This document shows positions 27,251-64,000 of a stretch of 64,000 bases of DNA, one piece after another (position 1 is the first letter of the stretch; each line of letters begins with the position of its first letter). The stretch is taken from NCBI GenBank assembly GCA_024516035.1, contig CM044963.1, forward strand, positions 23,439,676 to 23,503,675, read 5' to 3'. Source of the stretch: Bactericera cockerelli. Lineage: Eukaryota; Arthropoda; Insecta; Hemiptera; Triozidae. The notes beneath the pieces were generated by a model. That model was not told where the DNA came from and did not search any database. It saw nothing but the letters and a program-made list of their open reading frames with translations. The position numbers and the translations under genes were made by a program.

Positions 27251-27745
27251 CTGAGATGAGATTTGTGGTCCGGACGAACACTGGACGGCAGGCCAAATAT
27301 TAGCCTGAGTATTTTATTATTTACACTTTACTTGATTTACAAAACAGTCAACAACAACAAATTAATATCGATAATTATTTAAATAAAATAAAATAAAAAA
27401 CTAAAAAACTTAGAGATATGTACAAAAAATAAAGAGTACCGTACGGGCCGGCCAATAATACAAGCCCGCGAAATGAACTTAATTCGGGAGTAATGTTAAG
27501 GATTCTTGGGACTCGAACCACCGAGCTCCAGCTTACCGAGTCCACGGCTCGTGACCATTGTTGATCTCGGTTCGGCAGTCGGGATGCGCATTGCGACGTG
27601 CCCTGGCATGCATGATGTGGTGGTTAGGAGTTTCGTAATGATGATGCTACCTAGTAATTTTGTGACATAATAACACAAAGAAACCGCAGATACTACATAC
27701 ATACATAATACTGTTTTAGTCATTTGGGAATTTAGTCATTTGCTG
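27251..27745. other. no recognised gene; degraded SINE head
   Basis: 27505-27560 on the minus strand has a tRNA-like B-box (ggttcgagtcccaag). Otherwise unassigned. Confidence 0.45.
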
Positions 27746-27958
27746 TCCCGGTAGCTCAGTGGTAAAGGTGACGGTCTGGTAATCCACAGGTCGCGGGTTC
27801 GAAACCCAGCCGGGACATGACATGTTATCCTCCCATTTGGGATATTTTTACCACATAATAATACGTCTTGGGCTTACTGCTGGTATAATGGGACTTAATA
27901 GTCATAATCGGGCAGTATAAGGCGTATAATAAGGCGATATTAATATTATTATTATTTA
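27746..27958 (+). mobile_element. SINE-D, complete
   Basis: Head gtcccggtagctcagtggta ... ggttcgaaacccagccgggac has a perfect 7 bp acceptor-like stem and good A and B boxes. Its D-arm does not pair as a tRNA and the anticodon arm is irregular. The body (catgttatcctccca, cgtcttgggcttactgctgg) and ATT microsatellite tail recur at 61621, so it is a SINE and not a tRNA gene. Confidence 0.85.
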
Positions 27959-30426: not shown

Positions 30427-30690
30427 AGCCAGCGTCGATGGCATGTTGAATACACCGGTTCCCTTCAGAACACCGAAGTTAAGCGACATCCAGCGAGGTT
30501 AAGACTTGGATGGGTGACCATTCAAATTCTAAATCTCGTGACGCTGGCTTTTCCCGGCCCCACTCAGGCTGGGTGAGGTCAATGTGAGTAGCAGGTTTGT
30601 GAGTTTCCTGCGAATGGAGGGTAAAACCCCCGTCGTGATATGACCATGGCAGTTGAAAGCGACGTTAAACCCCACTTAAAAAAAAAAAAT
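30427..30690 (+). mobile_element. SINE-B (5S rRNA-derived), best copy
   Basis: The head aligns well with eukaryotic 5S rRNA: gttgaatacaccggttc, caccgaagttaagcgacatc, gaggttaagacttggatggg and tgacc. The body follows (cgtgacgctggcttttcccg, cactcaggctgggtgaggtc, tgcgaatggagggtaaaacc, gcgacgttaaaccccactt) with a ~12 A tail. 5S-headed SINEs are the SINE3 class, transcribed by Pol III from the internal 5S promoter. Confidence 0.88.
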
Positions 30691-38999: not shown

Positions 39000-39710
39000 A
39001 AAGGTGCATTTCACATCTCCACTGAAAAAATAATATTGAAAAGTGCATTTCATATTTATATCCACTGAAAAAATAATATTGAAAAGTGCATTTCACATCT
39101 CCACAGAAAAAAATAATATTGAAAGGTGCATTTCACATCTCCACTGAAAAAATAATATTGAAAGGTGCATTTCACTTCTCCACTGAAAAAATAATATTGA
39201 AAAGTGCATTTCACATCTCCACTGAAAAAATAATATTGAAAGGTGCATTTCACTTCTCCACTGAAAAAATAATATTGAAAGGTGCATTTCACATCTCCAC
39301 TGAAAAAATAATATTGAAAGGTGCATTTTACATCTCCACTGAAAAAATAATATTGAAAGGTGCATTTCACATCTCCACTGAAAAGTTAATTATGAATGGT
39401 GTAGCAGTGGTCAAAGCGTCTGTTCCGGTAATCCAGAGGTCGCGGGTTCGAAATCCAGTTGGGACATGAAAAGTTATGCTCCCCATTTAAATTTAAACGT
39501 CTTGGGCTTTAAAAATGGGACTCTTCGGGCAGTATATTAAGGTGATATTATTATTTGATATCTCCGCACTAAAAAAATAATATTGAAGCAGACATTTCAC
39601 ATCTCTACTACATATTAATGTAGAAATTTGCTTTTGATATCTCCACTAAAAAAATAATATTGAAAGGTGCATTTAACATCTCCACTCAAAAAATACTATT
39701 GATTTTTTTT
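39000..39710 (+). repeat. 39 bp satellite, about 10 regular units plus diverged ones
   Basis: Unit ggtgcatttcacatctccac plus tgaaaaaataatattgaaa. Regular from about 39000 to 39385, diverged at 39555-39710 after a SINE-D insertion. The 39 bp period keeps frames open on both strands. Confidence 0.92.
39395..39553 (+). mobile_element. SINE-D inserted in the 39 bp satellite
   Basis: gtagcagtggtcaaagcgtc ... gcgggttcgaaatccagttg, then cgtcttgggctttaaa and ggtgatattattatttga. The first bases of the head are missing. Confidence 0.75.
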
Positions 39711-41095: not shown

Positions 41096-41535
41096 TATCC
41101 TGCGTCGATGGCACGTTGAAAACACTAGTTCTCGTCCAGTCCCTTGAGTTTAGCAACGTTTAGCGAGGCTAGGACTTGGATAAGTGACCATTCATTCTTG
41201 ATTCTTGGGCTATTCCCCATCCAGGATGGGAAGTTTATTTTGACTAGCTCCGTGGCTCAGTGGTTAAGAGCATTCGCTGCTGACCCGGAGGTTGCGGGTT
41301 CGAATCCCGGCCGGAGCGGAAAATTCTAACCGAATTTTTCCGTTTCCGGAATGGCATGGATGTAAAGCTAAAGTGTCCTGAAGTAATGCAAAAGCGGTTC
41401 CGGGACACAACTAAAAAAAAAAAAAAAAAAAAAAGCTCATAATTTGTGAGTTGAGTTTCCAGCGAATTCAGTGTAAGGCCTCTGTCGTGAAATGATCATG
41501 CAGTTCCAAGCGAAGTATAAACCCAAAAATAAAAG
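41096..41535 (+). mobile_element. SINE-B interrupted by SINE-H
   Basis: 5S-like head 41096-41200 (gcgtcgatggcacgttgaaa, gaggctaggacttggataag) and body to about 41236. The body resumes at about 41427 (ataatttgtgagttgagttt) and ends ccaagcgaagtataaaccca. Confidence 0.75.
41237..41426 (+). mobile_element. SINE-H: tRNA-like head with poly(A) tail
   Basis: gctccgtggctcagtggtta plus agagc ... gcgggttcgaatcccggcc plus ggagc gives a 6 bp acceptor-like stem, a perfect GCTC/GAGC D-stem and a good T arm, but the anticodon arm is poor. A ~95 bp body and a 23-A tail follow. This is the most tRNA-like sequence in the window, but the A-tail and its nesting mark it as a retroposon. Confidence 0.75.
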
Positions 41536-55740: not shown

Positions 55741-56599
55741 TAGACGAGGGTGACACGGCGACGTGGATACGAACGTATTAATCAATGTGCCATGAACTTG
55801 GAATTAATTTAAACTGTATAATATTATTTATTTAAAAGTACATGAAACAAATTATAGACTTCTACAAACTCAGCTGAGGGAAGACCCAAAAGCATAATGG
55901 CTTTGCCGAAAGCATGACTAATTAATTATAGTTTACATTTGGGATATCATGCCAGTTCGCCCTCTATTGATACACCTGTATAGTGTTTACCGCTAAATGA
56001 ACTGAAACAACGGGTGCGGTGGACAGATATAAGTACCTATTATGGGATCTCCCAACTCCTTTTTTAATCCTTGAAACAATTTTTTCACGACCGTCGCGTC
56101 GCGTCAAACACTGTGGTCATTATGGCTTGTACAATTTTAGCTATTTACATCAACCTCACCCAGCCTCATACTAACTTATCTCCAGGCTCCGGGCTTCAAA
56201 CGAAAACATTTTTGAAAGCGAATGGATTTGAACTGAATTTAAAATATGTAATATTGAAAGAAGTGAATTTGGAATGTTCAACGCGATCTATGAGATAACG
56301 TTAGAATTAATTTTTGAATTCGCGCTTCTGCGAGCATTCATTTTGAGCCAGCTCTCGAAAGAGTCGACCTACCAGTAGTACCAATCTATTTTTCACAAAT
56401 TTAAATAACTACCAATTTTTAATTACTTTATGTAATCCATAAATAATATACAATATTATTAAATCCATTAAGATTTTTTGAGTACGCTACTATATTAAGA
56501 TACAATGCTTTTTCTTTACCAAAGCAAACAGTAATGTGTAAATATCAGACTATGATAAAAATATTCTACAATTGGCAACTCTGACTCAAAGAAAAGTAC
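55741..56599. other. upstream region of RpL13A; no gene seen
   Basis: AT-rich with a minus-strand SINE-B body scrap at about 56085-56200 (caacctcacccagcctcata). The 75-codon frame at 56071-56298 overlaps that scrap and is not credible. Confidence 0.5.
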
Positions 56600-56711
56600 A
56601 ACGCGCTCAAAGATTTATGAGTCGACTCGGCCATTTTGACAACAGACGTAAACAAGAGGCACGAGTCTAGAATCCGTGCCGTGGAAAAATCGGAATCATT
56701 TTCCTTTGAAA
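56600..56711 (+). promoter_or_regulatory. RpL13A promoter and 5' UTR region
   Basis: Just upstream of the ATG: a perfect 10 bp palindrome gagtcgactc (56619-56628), then ggccattttgac, whose CCAT core resembles YY1-type sites known near many ribosomal-protein promoters. The pyrimidine run attttcctttg follows, a possible TCT/TOP-type start as expected for ribosomal-protein mRNAs. No TATA box at the usual distance. The exact start site cannot be read from sequence alone. Confidence 0.4.
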
Positions 56712-56732
56712 ATGCCTGGAATCAACCGTAAA
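56712..56732 (+). CDS. RpL13A: RpL13A exon 1 coding part (7 codons)
   Basis: ATG CCT GGA ATC AAC CGT AAA encodes MPGINRK, followed directly by GTAAGT. Fusing it to exon 2 (PILIDGRGH) gives an N-terminus of the length usual for animal uL13, in phase 0. Start chosen because it is the only ATG upstream of exon 2 with a correctly phased consensus donor. Confidence 0.8.
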
Positions 56733-59700
56733 GTAAGTCATTAAACGTTTTTCCTAAGCAAATCCTTGTGGTGAATTATCTGCAGCATATAAAGTCTCCC
56801 TAGAATATTGCACAATCCTTTCTGTAAATAATGTACCCACTGTTCTCTGTTTCTCTGCTGCCAAAAACACATCACATAATATCACGTTGGTCCTCTGTAC
56901 ATCTGTACTTTGTTTTATTTTTATCTAAAAGGAACCTTAATTCTTTCAATATGTTCATTCCTGATAATCCATGTACTATCCAGTATGTGTCCATTACCAC
57001 TGAAAGTAGGATCTAAATTTCCTCAGTCTACAACATCTTCCTTAACTTTTGAATTCTCACATCTCAAGTCCTAACCTCAAAAAACAACAGATAGTATGAA
57101 TACTACCATAGTCACCTAGATATTCTGAAGCTAGATGATTGAAACTTAATAACAGCTTGGATTTTTTTTTATATAGAAAAGTTAGATTGTTCATGATTAG
57201 CTAAATAGCGATTCGATGCAACTACCAATTTTCACAAAAGTGTTATGGTATGCAGTCATTCTAGTGATTCAGTGATCTGTACCAGAAACACTTTCCACTC
57301 TCCTAATCTCCATCACACAATGCAATATGATTGGTTATTGAGTTCAAATTAATTAATCAGAGTGCATTATGATACAGTTGAAAGGGAAATTTGGAAAGTG
57401 TTTTTGGAATAGGCTACAGGTATTGTTGTAGCACTCTATTACAGTAGAACCCCAATATTATGAACTTGAGATAAAATGAACTTTTTTTCCCACAATTTTT
57501 TTCTCTAATTTCTCAAGAATTACTGACTTTTAGATCCTCACAATAGGTATATGTATAATGTACATACATATTTTGTATTTATGTACCTAATCTGTACTTA
57601 AACAAACACTCAAATACATGTATGCCTGTTCATATTATGTCTAAAATTTGCATTATTTCCCTTACTTTTACCTATGATTATTTGGAACCCCAATCTTATG
57701 AACATTTACATTGAACCCCAATCTTATGAACATTACATTGAACCCCACTATTATGAACTACCCCTGGTCCCAATTAGTTTATAATAATGGGGTTCTACGG
57801 TAATTCAAATCCCACCCAACGCAATAGTGTTTCTCATTGGTGTGAGGCTGATTTTTTGAGGTATTTTATCATGACACCAGACAACTGGGACTTATTAATA
57901 TTTGTATAGTATTGCTGACAAATTAATGGTGAAAAAATAATTAGGCTTTAACACTTTCTGTGCCGAAGACTCAATTATTGCCCAGTGCCGTAGCAATATT
58001 CGGCCGGTGTTACCAAATGGTAACACTGGCACAGGCTTGAAATTTTTTGAAGTTTTTCTTGTTCTGTGCTGGTGTTACCATTTGGTAACACTATTCCATG
58101 TAAGGTGTTACCCAAAGGTAACACCGGGGTCAAGAAGTAGATGTCTTTGGTGTTACCAAAAGGTAACACCATTTTTCTGAACAGGTGTCACCCAAACAGT
58201 AACACCGGCACGGAAAGTGTTAATTTTGCTATTCCATAAGTTAATTTTTGCAGCTATAAAGCTAAGATACTGGTGTGTTTGTATTAACACGTTCGTTACC
58301 AAGCCAATTTTTTCAAGTTTTACGTAGGGACCAGGCGGTAAAGTTGCTGTTGCATACTGGGGACCAAATTTTGGTCCCCAGGTTTTTTTTTGCATATTTG
58401 GCATCGTATTTGTACAAGAATCGATCCTATATTTGTTCTAATACTAACAACCTACCTCCAAAAGGCCATATATGGATGTCCGGTCCCTCGTTAAAATTTT
58501 GATAACAGCCACATATGGCCGTTCGGTCCCAGACAAAAACACAAAAACATCCACATATGGCCGTTCGGTAACGAACGTGTTAATTATGGTATCAAAAAAA
58601 AAAAAAAAAAAAAAAAATGAAGAGTGCAATAATTGTACCAAATTTTATATTTTCAGCCCATCTTGATTGATGGCAGAGGCCATCTGCTGGGACGTTTGGC
58701 ATCCATTGTTGCCAAGACCATCCTAAACGGAAACAGGGTAGTTGTAGTACGAGCAGAATTACTCAACATTTCCGGTAACTTCTTCAGGAACAAGCTCAAG
58801 TACTTGGCCTTCCTCAACAAAAGATGTAACGTAAACCCTGCCCGAGGTCCATTCCACTACCGGGCCCCTGCTAGGATATTCTGGAAAACAGTGAGAGGTG
58901 GGTGAAAACTTACTCTATTCAAAGATATATGTTGGTAAATTCTAATTCTTTCCTGTTCTCATGCATAACTGAACATTGTGAAGGAGTGATGTAATAACAT
59001 CAAAGGTAAATTATTTGAGGGCTCATGTTTTCATTAGAATAGTCATCCATGATGATTTTCAACCTTTTATCATAATAACTCATTTACAAGCAGAACACTG
59101 ACAAAGGGTGTGATTATTGTTGGAGACAATCTCTGCCATCAAACTCATAATATTCTGGCTAGGTACACATTTGCTTTGATACCAGTGACTGATGTATTAA
59201 TTAAAATAAATATTCCTCACTGTCTCTAATTGACTTGTATTGTGCCACTGATTATAAAAAAACCACATTACCTTACCTACATTATTTGACCTAATATGAA
59301 ACCAAGTGAGGCTCTTTATGAGGCACTATCAATTCAGTTAATCTTAGTATGTATACAATATTAGAGAACCTAAAATAAAGAAGGAAATTATCAAATTTTC
59401 ATAGATCTAAGCATCTTTTGTTTTGGAAATCTTAAAATATTTCCTGATGCAAGTCTTAATCTGTAGAATAGTTTTTATCTGCTGTCATAATTAAGCTCAT
59501 AAAAAGCATGAATCTCATTTAAATGGTACCAATGATTACAAAAAACCACCTTACCTTACCTACATTATTTGAATTTAGTTTGAAACTAACAGGCTCTTTA
59601 TGAGGTACCATAATGTCACAAAATGCCAGCTTGTTTTCTAGGATCTATGTCTTTATATCTCTTGAATTTCAATGTATTTTGAAAATCTAGGTCATTTTAG

Positions 59701-62429
59701 ACTTATATAGGTTTGTGTTGAATCTTGTATGTTTAGCTCCTAATATTTTAGTTAACTGCTAAATTTGCCCCTTGATGAGTACCTATGATTACAAAAAACC
59801 ACCTTACCTTACCTACATTATTTGAACAAAATATGAAACCACAAGGCTCTTTATGAGGTACTATCAAGTGACATGAAATCTTACTCGAAAATTATTTTTT
59901 AAATATTTTTCATGAATATATTGATGAACTCTTGTGATTGTTTTTTTTTTTCTATCTGTTTTGCACCTTGAAGAAATCAATTTTTGTTGCACCAATGATT
60001 ACAATAATCAACTTACCCTTACCTACATTGATTGAAATGTGAAACCAAGTGATTGTATGAGGTCAATAAATTATTGAAATACAGATTCAACCATCAAATT
60101 TTATATATCTTCATTTACATTTTGAATAAATTAACACTTTGAAAAATAACAATGATAGGTCTGGTGTACCAATGATTACAAAAAACCACCTTACCTTACC
60201 TACATTATTTGAATAAAATATGAAACCATAAGGCTCTTTATGAGGTACACCAGAAGATGATCTATTTAATTGAAATTATATGAATTGCAATTTAATTTAA
60301 ATTATATGAATAGTCTGGCTGGGGGACTATAAACAGGGAGTAGGCCAGCATTGGCTTGGTTCTGGGGGCCCTTGTCAATTATTAGCTTCCTTGTAAAGAC
60401 AGTGGTAGAAGTGCCGAGTTATTCCTCCACTGTCTGGCTACCATTGTTCTCGATGACGCCACCCTATGATGATGAATTGCAATTGAAAACAAAAAATGAT
60501 AAAAAGTTTTATTTTTTCTTCTCAAAACAAATTGTGAAGGAATTGGTATTTTTGGCCCGCTAATCCTCAATCAACTCTCTTGTCTCCCTTGTAGGAATGA
60601 CCCCACACAAGTTGGACCGAGGAGCTAAGGCACTCAAAAGGCTGAAGGTCTACGATGGAATTCCACCCAAGTATGCCCGCCGCCAGCGACTCTGTGTACC
60701 CACAGGTAAGTATTGGGGGGCATTAATCTAATGTCACAATAATCAACTAATTTTAACCAAACAATGTTTAATTTTGGTCAATAGTTAACTTTCTATAGTA
60801 TGTTTATGTATTTGTATCACCATTGACAACATAGTTGATCAACACCAACATTTATCACCTTGTTAAAACATGGCCTTACAAATTTATAGTTGAGAATTTT
60901 TTTAGGAGTGAATATGGTGCTAAAAAACTGGTGGTTTCTTTAAAATATTATTAAATTTAAGTATGATTCCAAGTGGTGAAGCACAAGGCCTCTTCTCAAT
61001 TTTTGTGGGAAGTGCAGCATTACCAAGAGCTTTCTTACTTTTGATTTTTTTTTACATTATTTTCTGTATACTCTACAAATTCCACCACTGATTTGTTACT
61101 CATAGGAGTTACTATTCATTTTTCCTCATGAGGAATAAATGGACCTCAGATAAACAATTAAGGCCTAGATAATTTTCAAAACCATCTGGGATTGTAATCC
61201 AGGTCACAAGACATGCAAGGCTAGTGGCCTAGACTCTAGACCACATTCCATTGTGACTCCTGAGTATTTTAAAATATTTTACAGTTTTATAATCATGACT
61301 GAAAAATATTGGCGGTTATGATGATTATTGGGATCACTTGAGGAGGTCTTGAGTCCTGTAAATGTATTTGTCTCTTAATTTAATGTGCAAACTTGAACAG
61401 TACACCCACCAATAATATTCAAGAACTGTTGTACCAATGATTACAAAAAACCACCTTACCTTACCTACATTATTTGAATACAAATATGAAACCATAAGGC
61501 TCTTTATGAGGTACAATCATGATTTTGTATGGACAATTTGTACATAATTAAACTTACAAACTTACAGATATTCTTAAAGAATAATAATTTAAGACTGTAA
61601 ATATTGTAAGTTTGCAATTAGTCTGTCCCGGTAGCTCAGTAGGTAAAGGTGGCACTCTGTGAATCCAAAGACTCCAGAAGTCGTGGGTTCAAAACCCAGC
61701 TGGGACATGACAAGTTATCCTCCCAATTCAGATTTTTACCACATAATAATTTGTCTTGGGCTTACTGCTGGAATAATGGGACTTTTATAGTCCTAATCGG
61801 GCAGTAAATAAGGCGATATTATTATCATTATTTATACTGTCCAGCTAGGATTAATGTGTCCAATTCCAGCAGTATTGTGTGGTCGTAAATCCCAAAAAGG
61901 GATTAAATCTCCAAGTTTAGAACCCACAAACTATGGATTACTACACCAACACCTTGACCACCGAGCTATCAATAATATGTGCAATATTATATTGTATTTT
62001 ATATTAATCATTTTTCTTAACACTTGGACGGGAAACCCCGGTGGTACACGCGTGTCTGTACGGAATGGACCGGTGTACCACCGGTGGTACACGCATGTAC
62101 TACGCCTGTGAATAGCCTAAACATCGCCGGTCCCACGGGAAAAACTTACTAAAACATGCTGGTCGTCTATGTGTTAAAATGCAGGTTTCTTTTCTTCATA
62201 AAGCTCGTGGCTTGCTTTATTTTAACAATATTATATTTACCCACCCAACAACATTCAACGTCTCCCTTGCAGCTCTGCGCACAGTGTGTCTGAAGCCGGC
62301 CGCAAGTACTGTTCAGTCGGACGTCTGAGTCACGAAGTCGGATGGAAGTACAAGACCGTTGTCAGGCATCTGGAGCGCAAGAGACGTGAGAAGGCATCCG
62401 AGAAGATCAAGCTCCACACTGTGTACAAT
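56712..62429 (+). CDS. RpL13A: Ribosomal protein L13A (uL13), 3'-incomplete, exons 1-4
   Basis: uL13 is a component of the large cytosolic ribosomal subunit. Coding pieces: 56712-56732, 58657-58897, 60595-60705 and 62273-62429. All introns are GT-AG and phases agree across every junction. Hallmarks of uL13: [77 protein letters not shown] and [12 protein letters not shown]. About 177 codons are visible of an expected ~205. The last ~28 residues must lie in an exon beyond 62429, which I could not find before the gap. Exon 4 contains a one-base frame break near 62297 (see findings). The introns carry nine snoRNA-like copies and three TTAA MITEs. Confidence 0.95.
57439..57803. mobile_element. pogo-like MITE with internal copies of its end motif
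   Basis: Ends ttacagtagaaccccaatat and aataatggggttctacggta plus a are inverted repeats. Inside, gaaccccaatcttatgaaca (57686 and 57713) and gaaccccactattatgaact (57740) repeat the terminal motif about every 27 bp. No transposase coding. Confidence 0.75.
57948..58223. mobile_element. TTAA MITE 1 with five internal hairpins
   Basis: Terminal repeats TTAACACTTTCTGTGCCG (57948) and CGGCACGGAAAGTGTTAA (ends 58223), TTAA at both ends as in piggyBac-type targets. Inside are five palindromes of the form ggtgttacc-n-ggtaacacc at about 58006, 58070, 58104, 58149 and 58184, with loops that differ (aaat, attt, caaa, aaaa, and a longer one). Confidence 0.85.
58284..58583. mobile_element. TTAA MITE 2 with internal palindromes
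   Basis: Perfect terminal repeats TTAACACGTTCGTTACC (58284) and GGTAACGAACGTGTTAA (ends 58583). Inside: a palindrome ctggggaccaaa/ttttggtccccag near 58357-58382 and three related ccatatatgg / ccacatatggccgttcggt motifs. It lies 61 bp after MITE 1 and 73 bp before exon 2. Confidence 0.85.
58657..58897 (+). CDS. RpL13A: RpL13A exon 2
   Basis: Begins after tattttcag with [20 protein letters not shown] and ends ARIFWKTVR plus one base of the next codon, before GTGGGT. Holds the N-terminal half of the uL13 fold. Confidence 0.95.
59242..59326 (+). ncRNA. C/D box snoRNA-like element, copy 1
   Basis: Terminal stem gtgcc/ggcac (other copies have gtacc/ggtac, so the middle pair is A-T elsewhere and G-C here, a compensatory change). 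C box CTGATTA, D' box TTGA, C' region TATGAAAC, D box ATGA. Guide-like segments cttacctacattat before D' and gtgaggctcttt before D. Most diverged at the 5' half. C/D snoRNAs guide 2'-O-methylation with fibrillarin in the nucleolus and are typically processed from introns. The target here is unknown. Confidence 0.72.
59523..59611 (+). ncRNA. C/D box snoRNA-like element, copy 2
   Basis: Eight-pair terminal stem atggtacc/ggtaccat. C box ATGATTA, D box ATGA. The D'-C' linker differs (atttagt) and the D guide begins ctaacaggctcttt, while the D' guide is identical to the consensus. Confidence 0.78.
59778..59862 (+). ncRNA. C/D box snoRNA-like element, copy 3
   Basis: Six-pair stem agtacc/ggtact. 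C box TATGATTAC, D box ATGA at 59853-59856. Linker acaaaat; D guide ccacaaggctcttt. Confidence 0.78.
59987..60066 (+). ncRNA. C/D box snoRNA-like element, copy 4 (diverged)
   Basis: C box ATGATTA and D box ATGA are kept, but the interior is shorter and changed (aataatcaacttaccctt; D guide aagtgattgt). The stem is ttg-c-acc/ggt-caa with a bulged C. It could be a decaying copy or one with a new target. Confidence 0.6.
60162..60252 (+). ncRNA. C/D box snoRNA-like element, copy 5
   Basis: Nine-pair terminal stem tggtgtacc/ggtacacca, the longest together with copy 9. C box ATGATTA at 60172-60178, D' TTGA, C' TATGAAAC, D ATGA at 60240-60243. Consensus guides. Confidence 0.82.
60314..60474 (+). repeat. 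Repeat Y fragment in intron 2
   Basis: tagtctggctgggggactat, ttctgggggcccttgtcaat, ccactgtctggctaccattg, tgatgatga. One tandem unit only; compare 31595-31900. Confidence 0.75.
60595..60705 (+). CDS. RpL13A: RpL13A exon 3
   Basis: Two bases complete the Gly codon from exon 2, then [36 protein letters not shown] and one base, before GTAAGT. Central uL13 region. Confidence 0.95.
61082..61255 (-). mobile_element. SINE-G
   Basis: Reverse copy: ttcatttttcctcatgagga, ggacctcagataaacaatta, then the head part tgggattgtaatccaggtca. Confidence 0.6.
61429..61516 (+). ncRNA. C/D box snoRNA-like element, copy 6
   Basis: Seven-pair stem ttgtacc/ggtacaa, extendable by a G-T pair. Consensus boxes and guides; D'-C' linker atacaaa. 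The only copy in intron 3. Confidence 0.82.
61621..61840 (+). mobile_element. SINE-D
   Basis: ctgtcccggtagctcagtag ... gtgggttcaaaacccagctg plus ggac; body caagttatcctcccaattca, ttgtcttgggcttactgctg; ATT-rich tail. Companion of 27746. Confidence 0.8.
61855..61975 (-). mobile_element. Degraded tRNA-like SINE head
   Basis: Minus strand: gatagctcggtggtcaaggt ... tagtttgtgggttctaaact. SINE-D-like but diverged. Confidence 0.45.
62017..62177. mobile_element. TTAA MITE 3 with internal palindromes
   Basis: Ends TTAACACTTGGACG (62017) and CGTCTATGTGTTAA (ends 62177). Inside, ggtgtaccaccggtggtaca plus cg is a strong palindrome, and ccggtggtacacgcgtgt repeats part of it. 161 bp. Confidence 0.75.
62273..62429 (+). 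CDS. RpL13A: RpL13A exon 4, with one-base frame break
   Basis: The first frame gives ALRTVCLKP. From 62298 the next frame gives [20 protein letters not shown] and continues to HTVYN at 62429, before GTGAGT. A single base appears to be missing around 62296-62298. Sequence either side is fully conserved, so an assembly error is more likely than a dead gene. Confidence 0.88.
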
Positions 62430-62885
62430 GTGAGTGTTATGAAACTGCTTTCTTTTCTACAGTGTTTTCCCATTCATTCATGTGGTGTTGTCGTTTTGTG
62501 CTCAACTCCTTCCCGGAGGTTGATTTTGTTCATAAAAAATAAACACATTACTTTTTTTTGAAAATAATCAAACTCATAATAAAAAAAAGTAAATAACATT
62601 ATACATTCTTTTTTATGAACATAATCAAACTCCTAATCAAAAAAAGTAAACACACATTACTTTTTTTATGAACATGATCAAACTCCCAATCAAAAAAAGT
62701 AAATACATTACTTTTTTTATAAACATAATACAATAAGAAGTATAATTATCCAAGCCTGATCAAGGTGGATAATGCATCTGGCATTCTACTCCAATTTTTT
62801 ATATTTATTTTTTGACATTGATGTTGTTTGTTTTGGTCCTTTACAATCTGCTGGAAGCACCAATCAATTTCCAAGATGAAAATGA

Positions 62886-62970
62886 TGTACCAATGATTAC
62901 AAAAAACCACCTTACCTTACCTACATTATTTGAATAAAATATGAAACCATAAGGCTCTTTATGAGGTACA
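62886..62970 (+). ncRNA. C/D box snoRNA-like element, copy 7
   Basis: Stem tgtacc/ggtaca (6 pairs). Consensus C, D', C' and D boxes and both guides, identical to copy 5 inside the stem. Confidence 0.8.
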
Positions 62971-63175
62971 ACCATCTGTGAAAAAGGATTATTCATTTTT
63001 TTTATTCCTTCAATTTTTTTTACTAGACTTCTTCTATCCAGTATGTTCTGGAGAGCTTATTAAAATGATCGAGAGTCAAACCATAGGGAAAAACATATTT
63101 ATTTAAAGGCATTATAAAAGTAAACCATCTGAAGGACAATTTTTTAAGCTTCACCAATATTTTTTGTTTTGCCAA

Positions 63176-63259
63176 GTACCTATGATTACAAAAAACCACC
63201 TTACCTTACCTACATTATTTGAATACAAATATGAAACCATAAGGCTCTTTATGAGGTAC
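63176..63259 (+). ncRNA. C/D box snoRNA-like element, copy 8
   Basis: Core stem gtacc/ggtac. After a small internal loop, ttttgc (63167-63172) pairs with gcaaaa just downstream. Linker atacaaa as in copy 6. Confidence 0.8.
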
Positions 63260-63547
63260 AGCAAAATTATCATATCTTTAAGTATCTTGTCAATTTTTCT
63301 TCTTTTTATTTTTTCCTTTTTCTTAAAATATATTTTATTTATTAAATAACATTAATTAATAAAATAAAAATATTAGGATTGTATGGGTCCAGATTCAATC
63401 ATTTAGTTTTCTTAAATTAAAAATTTCCTATGATATTAAATAATTAAATTCCAAGATATTTCTAATATTAGAATTATTTGTTTTTGTAAAAAAAAAAAAT
63501 GCTAAGATTTCAATTCTTTCATTTAATGTTCCATATAAATTATTGAT

Positions 63548-63637
63548 CTTTGTACCTATGATTACAAAAACCACCTTACCTTACCTACATTATTTGAATA
63601 AAATATGAAACCATAAGGCTCTTTATGAGGTACAAAG
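63548..63637 (+). ncRNA. C/D box snoRNA-like element, copy 9
   Basis: Nine-pair stem ctttgtacc/ggtacaaag. One A shorter in the A run after the C box. Consensus guides. Confidence 0.82.
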
Positions 63638-63773
63638 ACATTTTATTTTATCTCCAAGTCTAATCCTTATGTAGAGTAGTTGTCTTCACAAATTTCTAAG
63701 ATACTCGAATATTTTTTCACAAGGGGGAAATATAAGTTCTGACTCAAACTTTTGATCCCTTAGTGTTTTATTT

Positions 63774-63873
63774 NNNNNNNNNNNNNNNNNNNNNNNNNNN
63801 NNNNNNNNNNNNNNNNNNNNNNNNNNNNNNNNNNNNNNNNNNNNNNNNNNNNNNNNNNNNNNNNNNNNNNNNN
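63774..63873. other. Assembly gap (100 N)
   Basis: Exactly 100 N, the usual placeholder for unknown length. RpL13A exon 5 may lie in or beyond it. Confidence 0.99.
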
Positions 63874-64000
63874 GGTGTGGAGGACAATAAACTCCTAGGT
63901 CCACACAGGTGCGATACAGGTGTCTCCAGGAATCATCGAGATCTACACATTCCTGGAGTTTCTAGTAATGTACAGGGTGTTACTGCCGATATTTTATTAA
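63874..64000 (+). repeat. Second copy of the ~105 bp module family
   Basis: ggtgtggaggacaataaact, cctaggtccacacaggtgcg, caggtgtctccaggaatcat and following bases match 174-290 with few changes. Confidence 0.85.

Follow-up and report, generated by a model that had tools for sequence, protein, structure and literature searches.

Multiple U34-Like Box C/D snoRNA Copies per Intron in the RpL13A Gene of Bactericera cockerelli

Introduction

The small nucleolar RNA (snoRNA) U34, or SNORD34 (Rfam RF00147; snR62 in yeast, clan CL00055), is an ancient box C/D RNA guiding rRNA methylation, and the sites tabulated for U34, snR62, and AtU34 in large subunit (LSU) ribosomal RNA (rRNA) are Um2824 in human, Um1886 in yeast, and Um1882 in Arabidopsis (PMC3511168). 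SNORD34 is located in RPL13A in rhesus and mouse, where it and SNORD33 are usually found in separate introns (PMC4234469), and one snoRNA per intron has been described as the predominant rule in animals (PMC11028025). The present work concerns a window of 64,000 nucleotides (nt) from the hemipteran Bactericera cockerelli (assembly GCA_024516035.1, contig CM044963.1, forward-strand positions 23,439,676 to 23,503,675), in which the introns of RpL13A carry nine similar box C/D elements. With a probability of roughly 0.87, these are U34 copies that are still in RpL13A and have been amplified to nine. The array is real, functional-looking, and identifiable; the surprise lies in the ninefold increase of U34 within its host gene, with several copies to an intron, and not in a new family.

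Other described systems share single features with this locus. Intronic snoRNA clusters, including SNORD115/116-type arrays and the fly Uhg loci, place several snoRNAs in host introns and sometimes in one intron (PMC11028025; PMC13228274 section 5). The nucleomorph snoRNAs GtNM-R12-14 of Guillardia have the same AUGAUU/AUGA box change as the copies described here (PMC6461891); this organism is distant, the change is presumably convergent, and the likeness is one of boxes only. The guides for human Am2802 and Arabidopsis Am1861 (RF00189 and snoR33) are tabulated under a family other than U34 (PMC3511168) and share with the present elements only a predicted site, that of the second guide segment; here, one RNA would serve both targets. 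Word searches of open papers returned no title or abstract start describing a multi-copy U34 array in RpL13A. We know of no amplified U34 in a ribosomal-protein host among the snoRNA clusters, SNORD115/116-type arrays, and fly Uhg loci. What would be new is the ninefold amplification in the ancestral host, the presence of several copies per intron, and possibly a gained second target.

Nine Copies in the Introns of RpL13A

The initial annotation of this DNA, made without database searches, had proposed nine sense copies of a box C/D-like intronic snoRNA in RpL13A, locally amplified and divided five, one, and three among introns 2, 3, and 4, with none noticed elsewhere in the 64 kb. The nine copies and their placement were borne out by a repeat search of positions 58500-64000 and by a covariance model, which place the array at 59242-63633; the next matches in the window reach at most 14.6 bits, with E values of 2.1 or worse. 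The covariance search had itself been suggested by that annotation, and it recovers all nine copies at 49.8-119.2 bits. Eight window copies and three copies of a second locus (see below) went into the model; copy 4 was excluded and was still found (49.8 bits, E 2.3e-8). Copy length had been put at about 85-90 nt; the conserved RNA actually measures 76-85 nt between stem ends.

All nine copies lie on the forward strand. Intron 2 (58898..60594, its GT...AG ends and coding phase judged by eye) holds copies 1-5. Copy 1 (59242..59326; 92.8 bits) has box C at 59248-59254, D' at 59286-59289, C' at 59296-59302, and D at 59318-59321, and is closed by the stem GTGCC/GGCAC. In copy 2 (59526..59608; 109.2 bits), the four boxes, in the same order, lie at 59532-59538, 59569-59572, 59580-59586, and 59600-59603, within an 8-bp stem, ATGGTACC/GGTACCAT. 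Copy 3 (59779..59861; boxes at 59785-59791, 59822-59825, 59833-59839, and 59853-59856; 116.2 bits) has a stem that continues past a one-base bulge, CTTGAT-G-AGTACC/GGTACTATCAAG. Copy 4 (59989..60064; boxes at 59995-60001, 60032-60035, 60039-60045, and 60057-60060) is clearly divergent, retaining the four boxes and the guide before box D' (D' guide) and lacking the one before box D (D guide). Copy 5 (60166..60248; boxes at 60172-60178, 60209-60212, 60220-60226, and 60240-60243; 119.2 bits) has an 11-bp stem, and copies 6-9 are 97-100% identical to it. Copy 6 (61431..61514; boxes at 61437-61443, 61474-61477, 61486-61492, and 61506-61509; 115.1 bits) stands alone in intron 3. Intron 4 contains copy 7 (62887..62969; boxes at 62893-62899, 62930-62933, 62941-62947, and 62961-62964; 119.2 bits), copy 8 (63176..63259; boxes at 63182-63188, 63219-63222, 63231-63237, and 63251-63254; 114.5 bits), where an outer TTTTGC/GCAAAA pairing follows an internal loop, and copy 9 (63552..63633; boxes at 63558-63564, 63594-63597, 63605-63611, and 63625-63628; 112.7 bits), with a 10-bp stem.

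The host gene was identified from exon 2 (58657..58897, forward strand; tblastn 58657-58899, splice ends by eye), which matches Pfam Ribosomal_L13 at 49.9 bits as well as L13a/uL13 chains. It is named exon 2 because the start codon sits upstream; exon 1 was not located. Exon 3 (60595..60705) was placed by tblastn and exon 4 (62273..62429) has ends set by eye, both on the forward strand; searched singly, neither gave a Pfam match. The arrangement is thus that of vertebrate SNORD34 in its host gene, RPL13A, a comparison of genes and not of intron positions.

Identity of the Array

A U34 identity is supported by three features that match those of U34, namely the D' guide, its target, and the RpL13A host. 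SNORD34 is the best Rfam family for eight of the nine copies (22.9-36.9 bits over 56500-64000, with E values up to 2), the highest score belonging to copy 9. The copies and RF00147 align over a common core, UUACCUACAUU-UUUGA, which corresponds to the D' guide together with the D' box. The array accordingly shares with SNORD34 its host in mouse and rhesus, this guide core, the predicted LSU uridine, and the C/D architecture. It differs in its nine copies with several per intron, in its individually extended outer stems, in its box C and D sequences, in a second guide absent from the Rfam consensus, and in scoring below the Rfam cut-off. On this last account, the elements are best described as U34 homologues by guide, target, and host and not as Rfam-defined members. 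The lineage-specific family of the initial annotation therefore did not hold up; what was found resembles U34, one of the vertebrate RpL13A snoRNAs (U32-U35) that the annotation had itself named as a parallel. Still, the amplification, and perhaps also the second guide, may be lineage-specific.

Pairing of the D' guide was assessed on five LSU stretches (L015-L019), which are eukaryotic rRNA contaminants in five bacterial metagenome-assembled genome contigs and match Rfam LSU models. The example in copy 5 (60194..60208, forward strand, 15 nt) pairs with LSU AUAAUGUAGGUAAGG and is predicted to target the U of human Um2824. Against ATAATGTAGGTAAGG, the guide forms 15 consecutive Watson-Crick pairs in L015, L016, and L018 and 14 in L019; in L017, the match begins one base later, as it does in L019. 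The fifth pair falls on the U of AAUGUAGG in all five stretches, so a guide of 14-15 bp positions its target at the fifth nucleotide, as expected of a C/D RNA, on the LSU of other eukaryotes. We take this stretch to be that of Um2824, from the Rfam match and from the human 28S sequence.

Boxes C, D', C', and D are present in all nine window copies; the initial annotation had noted box-like motifs and two guide-like segments, of which the former stand throughout, but the second guide is missing from copy 4. Box C reads AUGAUUA (CUGAUUA in copy 1) and box D reads AUGA in all 18 copies of the two loci, in place of the AUGAUGA/CUGA of the Rfam consensus. Since position 6 of box C and position 1 of box D have both changed, a Watson-Crick U-A pair takes the place of G-C. 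A test for the kink-turn (K-turn) that combined GA/GA pairs, U-U, and a Watson-Crick C6-D1 pair was passed by 18 of 18 copies. The inner boxes read (A/U/G)UGAAAC for C' and UUGA for D', with A-U at C'6-D'1 in 18/18 and A-U at the next position, where C/D has U-U. Compensation of the AUGAUU/AUGA kind has been described in three nucleomorph snoRNAs, in a report that also cites rescue of L7 binding in double mutants (PMC6461891), and a Watson-Crick C6-D1 pair is an element of a published snoRNA filter (PMC7994747).

Terminal stems built with flanking bases have been reported as an important determinant of C/D snoRNA expression (PMC12309372). From copy 1 to copy 9, the outer stems comprise 5, 8, 6, 3, 11, 8, 6, 5, and 10 contiguous pairs, G-U allowed; eight of the nine thus have at least 5 bp, and copy 4 has 3 bp with a bulged extension. 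The outer stems reach beyond the common GTACC/GGTAC, and those of copies 3, 4, and 8 extend past a bulge or loop. The energies of each copy's own left and right flanks, summed over the nine, were compared with 20,000 re-pairings. None of the re-pairings was as good at 15 and 20 nt, and the corresponding fractions were 0.00005 at 12 nt, 0.00045 at 10 nt, and 0.0005 at 12 nt for the duplex only. Single copies are not all outstanding: with 10-nt flanks, copies 1, 4, 6, and 7 rank 7, 6, 4, and 7 of 9, and with 15 nt, copy 7 ranks 5. The earlier proposal that outer stems differ between copies yet remain complementary is therefore sound for the flanks as a set, but the core 5-bp stem varies at just one pair. 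Three stretches were folded against shuffles: those of copies 5 and 9, which include the outer stems, did better than the shuffles (z -2.59 and z -3.70), and copy 3, taken as its bare core, did not (z -0.48).

The Second Guide Segment

Eight of the nine copies read AGGCTCTTT immediately before box D. In copy 5 (60231..60239, forward strand), this D guide pairs with GAAGAGCCU in the LSU of L016 and is predicted to target the A that is Am2802 in human. The match is in register, with eight Watson-Crick pairs and one G-U, and copy 1 makes nine Watson-Crick pairs. On L016, the fifth base is an A, which precedes the U site by 21 nt. In the table that lists the U34 sites, human Am2802 and Arabidopsis Am1861 stand 22 and 21 nt before them (PMC3511168), so the register falls on a known methylation site. 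Among 20,000 shuffled D guides, 14.2% match eight bases anywhere in L016 and 0.38% do so within 30 nt of the U site. Because the Rfam SNORD34 consensus differs before box D, the second guide looks gained; copy 4 keeps ACATTG, as in that consensus, and may represent the older form.

The pairing is seen on the rRNA of another eukaryote and is compatible with a damaged rDNA contig of the host, C948 (L022, L024), which was found after a DNA query and a pattern search for host 28S had given no match. This contig reads TAAGA.CCTCTA at the D-guide site, which is compatible with GAAGAGCCUCUA minus its G's and is not proof. As an observation in its own right, C948 is an rDNA unit with numerous one-base losses in its 18S and 28S, for the most part of G or C as judged by eye, and it looks unpolished. 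Five chromosomal 28S fragments bear on its origin: three are closer to C948 than to L016 (L026, at 90.5% versus 81.5%; L029; and L030), L031 is equally close to both, and L027 matches only L016. From this comparison, C948 is probably, not surely, the host's.

A Second Locus and the Rest of the Genome

A second cluster, about 77 kb away in the 565-Mb genome, has the same nine copies. It is accompanied by exon 3, exon 4, and, less than 300 nt after the third intron-4 copy, a candidate exon 5 (E 1.2e-4 with the exon 5 query); no exon 2 was found in the roughly 9 kb before it. The two loci are probably two haplotypes of one gene split by mis-assembly, with a true partial duplication as the less favored option. 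Since two haplotypes are the simpler explanation, nine copies are counted here and not eighteen.

Comparison of the loci covered aligned intron blocks at 59127-60295 and 61379-63773, with exons skipped and with the block at 60481-60824 and the remainder set aside. Differences number 4/743 at snoRNA sites, 5/270 in 15-nt flanks, and 71/2366 at other intron sites, so that snoRNA sites differ about 5.5-fold less often than other intron sites (Fisher p 2.6e-5).

Outside RpL13A, the BLAST matches were limited to two sites on C4 with a 5' half that stops at D' and two sites on C8 with a 31-nt fragment; the covariance model gives these 44 and 33 bits. The half-copies (L010:501-566 and L011:482-544) run from the C box to D' and then into T runs; the repeat that surrounds them, roughly 1 kb long and 93% identical, is present in opposite orientation. 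The C8 fragment (L012, L013) matches 31 nt of the U34 guide region exactly and occurs in two 1-kb blocks that are 99% identical, lie on opposite strands, and are separated by 7 Mb. A genome-wide guide pattern with at most one mismatch hit 43 places (a reversed control hit 12), of which 18 belong to the clusters, 2 to C4, and 23 lie elsewhere (1 exact and 22 with one mismatch). The 22 score at best 22.4 bits with the covariance model, and the exact one, on C5, scores 15.2. These places were considered as further U34 copies and rejected: by the same script, paired C/D boxes occur in 0 of 23, against 9 of 9 window copies. In genome stretches L032-L034, the covariance model gave no further convincing match, a 92.8-bit match in L032 being copy 1 of the second locus again.

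Alternative Explanations

Several observations weigh against a U34 reading. No copy attains the RF00147 gathering score of 38, and a search of the window with Rfam's own cut-off gives no snoRNA. For copy 4, the SNORD34 score (17.2 bits, in a smaller search) is below that of an antisense microRNA-family match (26.2 bits), which is itself far under its cut-off. A whole-genome search with RF00147 gave no match, the known copies and 14 controls included, and is uninformative. Boxes C and D are both off the common consensus RUGAUGA/CUGA. Host 28S is represented only by the base-poor C948, on which the D' guide makes 8 unbroken pairs. The core 5-bp stem has one covarying pair in the model alignment (A-U to G-C, in copy 1), and 61 of 500 shuffles score as high. 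Low divergence among the snoRNA sites could also in part reflect gene conversion among copies. A rival reading, at somewhat less than even odds, concerns the D segment, which may be structural or directed at some other target, leaving an RNA with one target in rRNA. The match has only eight Watson-Crick pairs and one G-U, some 14% of shuffled guides find an eight-pair match somewhere in L016, and the consensus guide has another possible site in L016, at position 240, if one G-U is tolerated (8 Watson-Crick pairs). The guide has no eight-pair match in L015, L018, L019, or C948, and is matched only on L016. Section 6 of a fly preprint moreover gives 28S 2401-2804 as a region of human-specific 2'-O-methylation (Nm) signals (PMC13228274), so an Am2802-type site may lack methylation in insects. 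In favor of a second guide, the match is exactly in register, lies 21 nt away from the D' target, and falls on the A equivalent of human Am2802 and Arabidopsis Am1861; copy 1 makes nine pairs, and the damaged host contig reads AAGA.CCTCT there.

A U34 array could also be mostly relics, with one or a few functional copies and the others being recent pseudogenes homogenized by gene conversion. The closeness of copies 6-9 to copy 5 fits recent copying or conversion, a D guide in copy 4 was either lost or never present, and half-copies exist on C4; all nine copies nevertheless keep four boxes with paired K-turn changes and the D' guide, and their outer stems match, as a set, in flanks that are unshared between copies, where conversion of the core cannot make matched flanks. 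This account is unlikely. Those same stems bear on the improbable idea that the multi-copy introns mainly yield snoRNA-ended long noncoding RNAs (sno-lncRNAs), capped at both ends by snoRNA-protein complexes and acting beyond methylation guidance. Two snoRNAs per intron can yield such RNAs, among them one from mouse RPL13A, SNORD33-SNORD34, that arises through alternative splicing (PMC4234469; PMC11028025), and intron 2 here has five copies and intron 4 has three; individual outer stems suggest separate maturation of each copy instead, and the more frequent differences at other intron sites give no sign of spacer conservation. It is very hard to credit that the copies are a transposable or inserted element resembling a miniature inverted-repeat transposable element, whose terminal inverted repeats would be GTACC/GGTAC and which would have inserted at palindromic GTAC sites. 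The ends of the core are indeed inverted repeats and several flanks lengthen the palindrome, but the copies share one orientation and one gene, they match SNORD34 and an rRNA target, and outside RpL13A there are only the short C4 and C8 fragments and the 23 guide-like places that lack paired boxes. Direct flanking repeats are also absent (observed 38, permuted mean 36.8, p 0.39). The initial annotation had held that many dispersed copies in both orientations with target-site duplications would indicate a transposon; no dispersed full-length copies were found, nor any duplication signal, and the transposon explanation was rejected.

Proposed Mechanism and Significance

If the copies are U34 genes, then, by analogy with known C/D biology, each would, once the RpL13A pre-mRNA is transcribed and spliced, form its terminal stem and two K-turn-like box pairs, bind the C/D proteins, and be trimmed from the intron. 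The D' guide would direct 2'-O-methylation of the LSU rRNA uridine that corresponds to Um2824. The D guide of eight copies would probably do so for the adenosine that corresponds to Am2802, 21 nt upstream, a step that is less sure than the rest.

With several copies per intron, end-trimming alone would leave inner copies joined. Where one intron holds two C/D units, trimming from the ends can produce remnants capped by snoRNAs (PMC11028025), and separate maturation of the five intron 2 copies would therefore need internal cuts. The individual outer stems probably serve to protect or cut each copy, with no particular nuclease implied. The most likely benefit of the array would be dosage of a single abundant guide. 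A more ambitious view, which we consider doubtful, is that of a nine-gene, two-target array in which a second guide was gained for the Am2802-type site, the K-turn pair went from G-C to U-A, the one-per-intron layout was abandoned by means of an extended processing stem on each copy, and introns may persist as sno-lncRNAs.

If the U34 reading is true, the locus would be a clear natural case of increased snoRNA dosage through amplification within the ancestral host gene, and it would place a U34 homologue in the RpL13A introns of a non-mammalian animal. Nine separately built outer stems would provide comparative data on what C/D snoRNAs need for excision from a shared intron, and two predicted targets 21 nt apart would frame the hypothesis of one RNA as a double guide.

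Other Features of the Window

Exons 2-4 of RpL13A precede a scaffold gap of N's at 63774-63873, inside intron 4; past it, there is just a weak match with stop codons to the exon 5 query (E 0.010). Exon 4 (62273-62429) has one base fewer than at the second locus, which breaks the reading frame there and is probably a base-calling error or an allele.

Above the Rfam cut-offs, the window has one 5S rRNA match and two tRNA matches, at 30428-30549, 27745-27817, and 41247-41317. A tRNA-like stretch at 61625-61707 falls under the cut-off (24.8 bits) and lies near stretches that match one another via L010 (also 27772-27956 and 39412-39488); it looks like a tRNA-derived short interspersed element. The microRNA-family matches given by Rfam near 58 kb are palindromic repeats, far under cut-off. 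At 58007-58200, repeated palindromic ggtgttacc/ggtaacacc units would form hairpins, and 62530-62729 contains imperfect tandem repeats, about 51-57 nt per unit, with an abundance of A/T runs.

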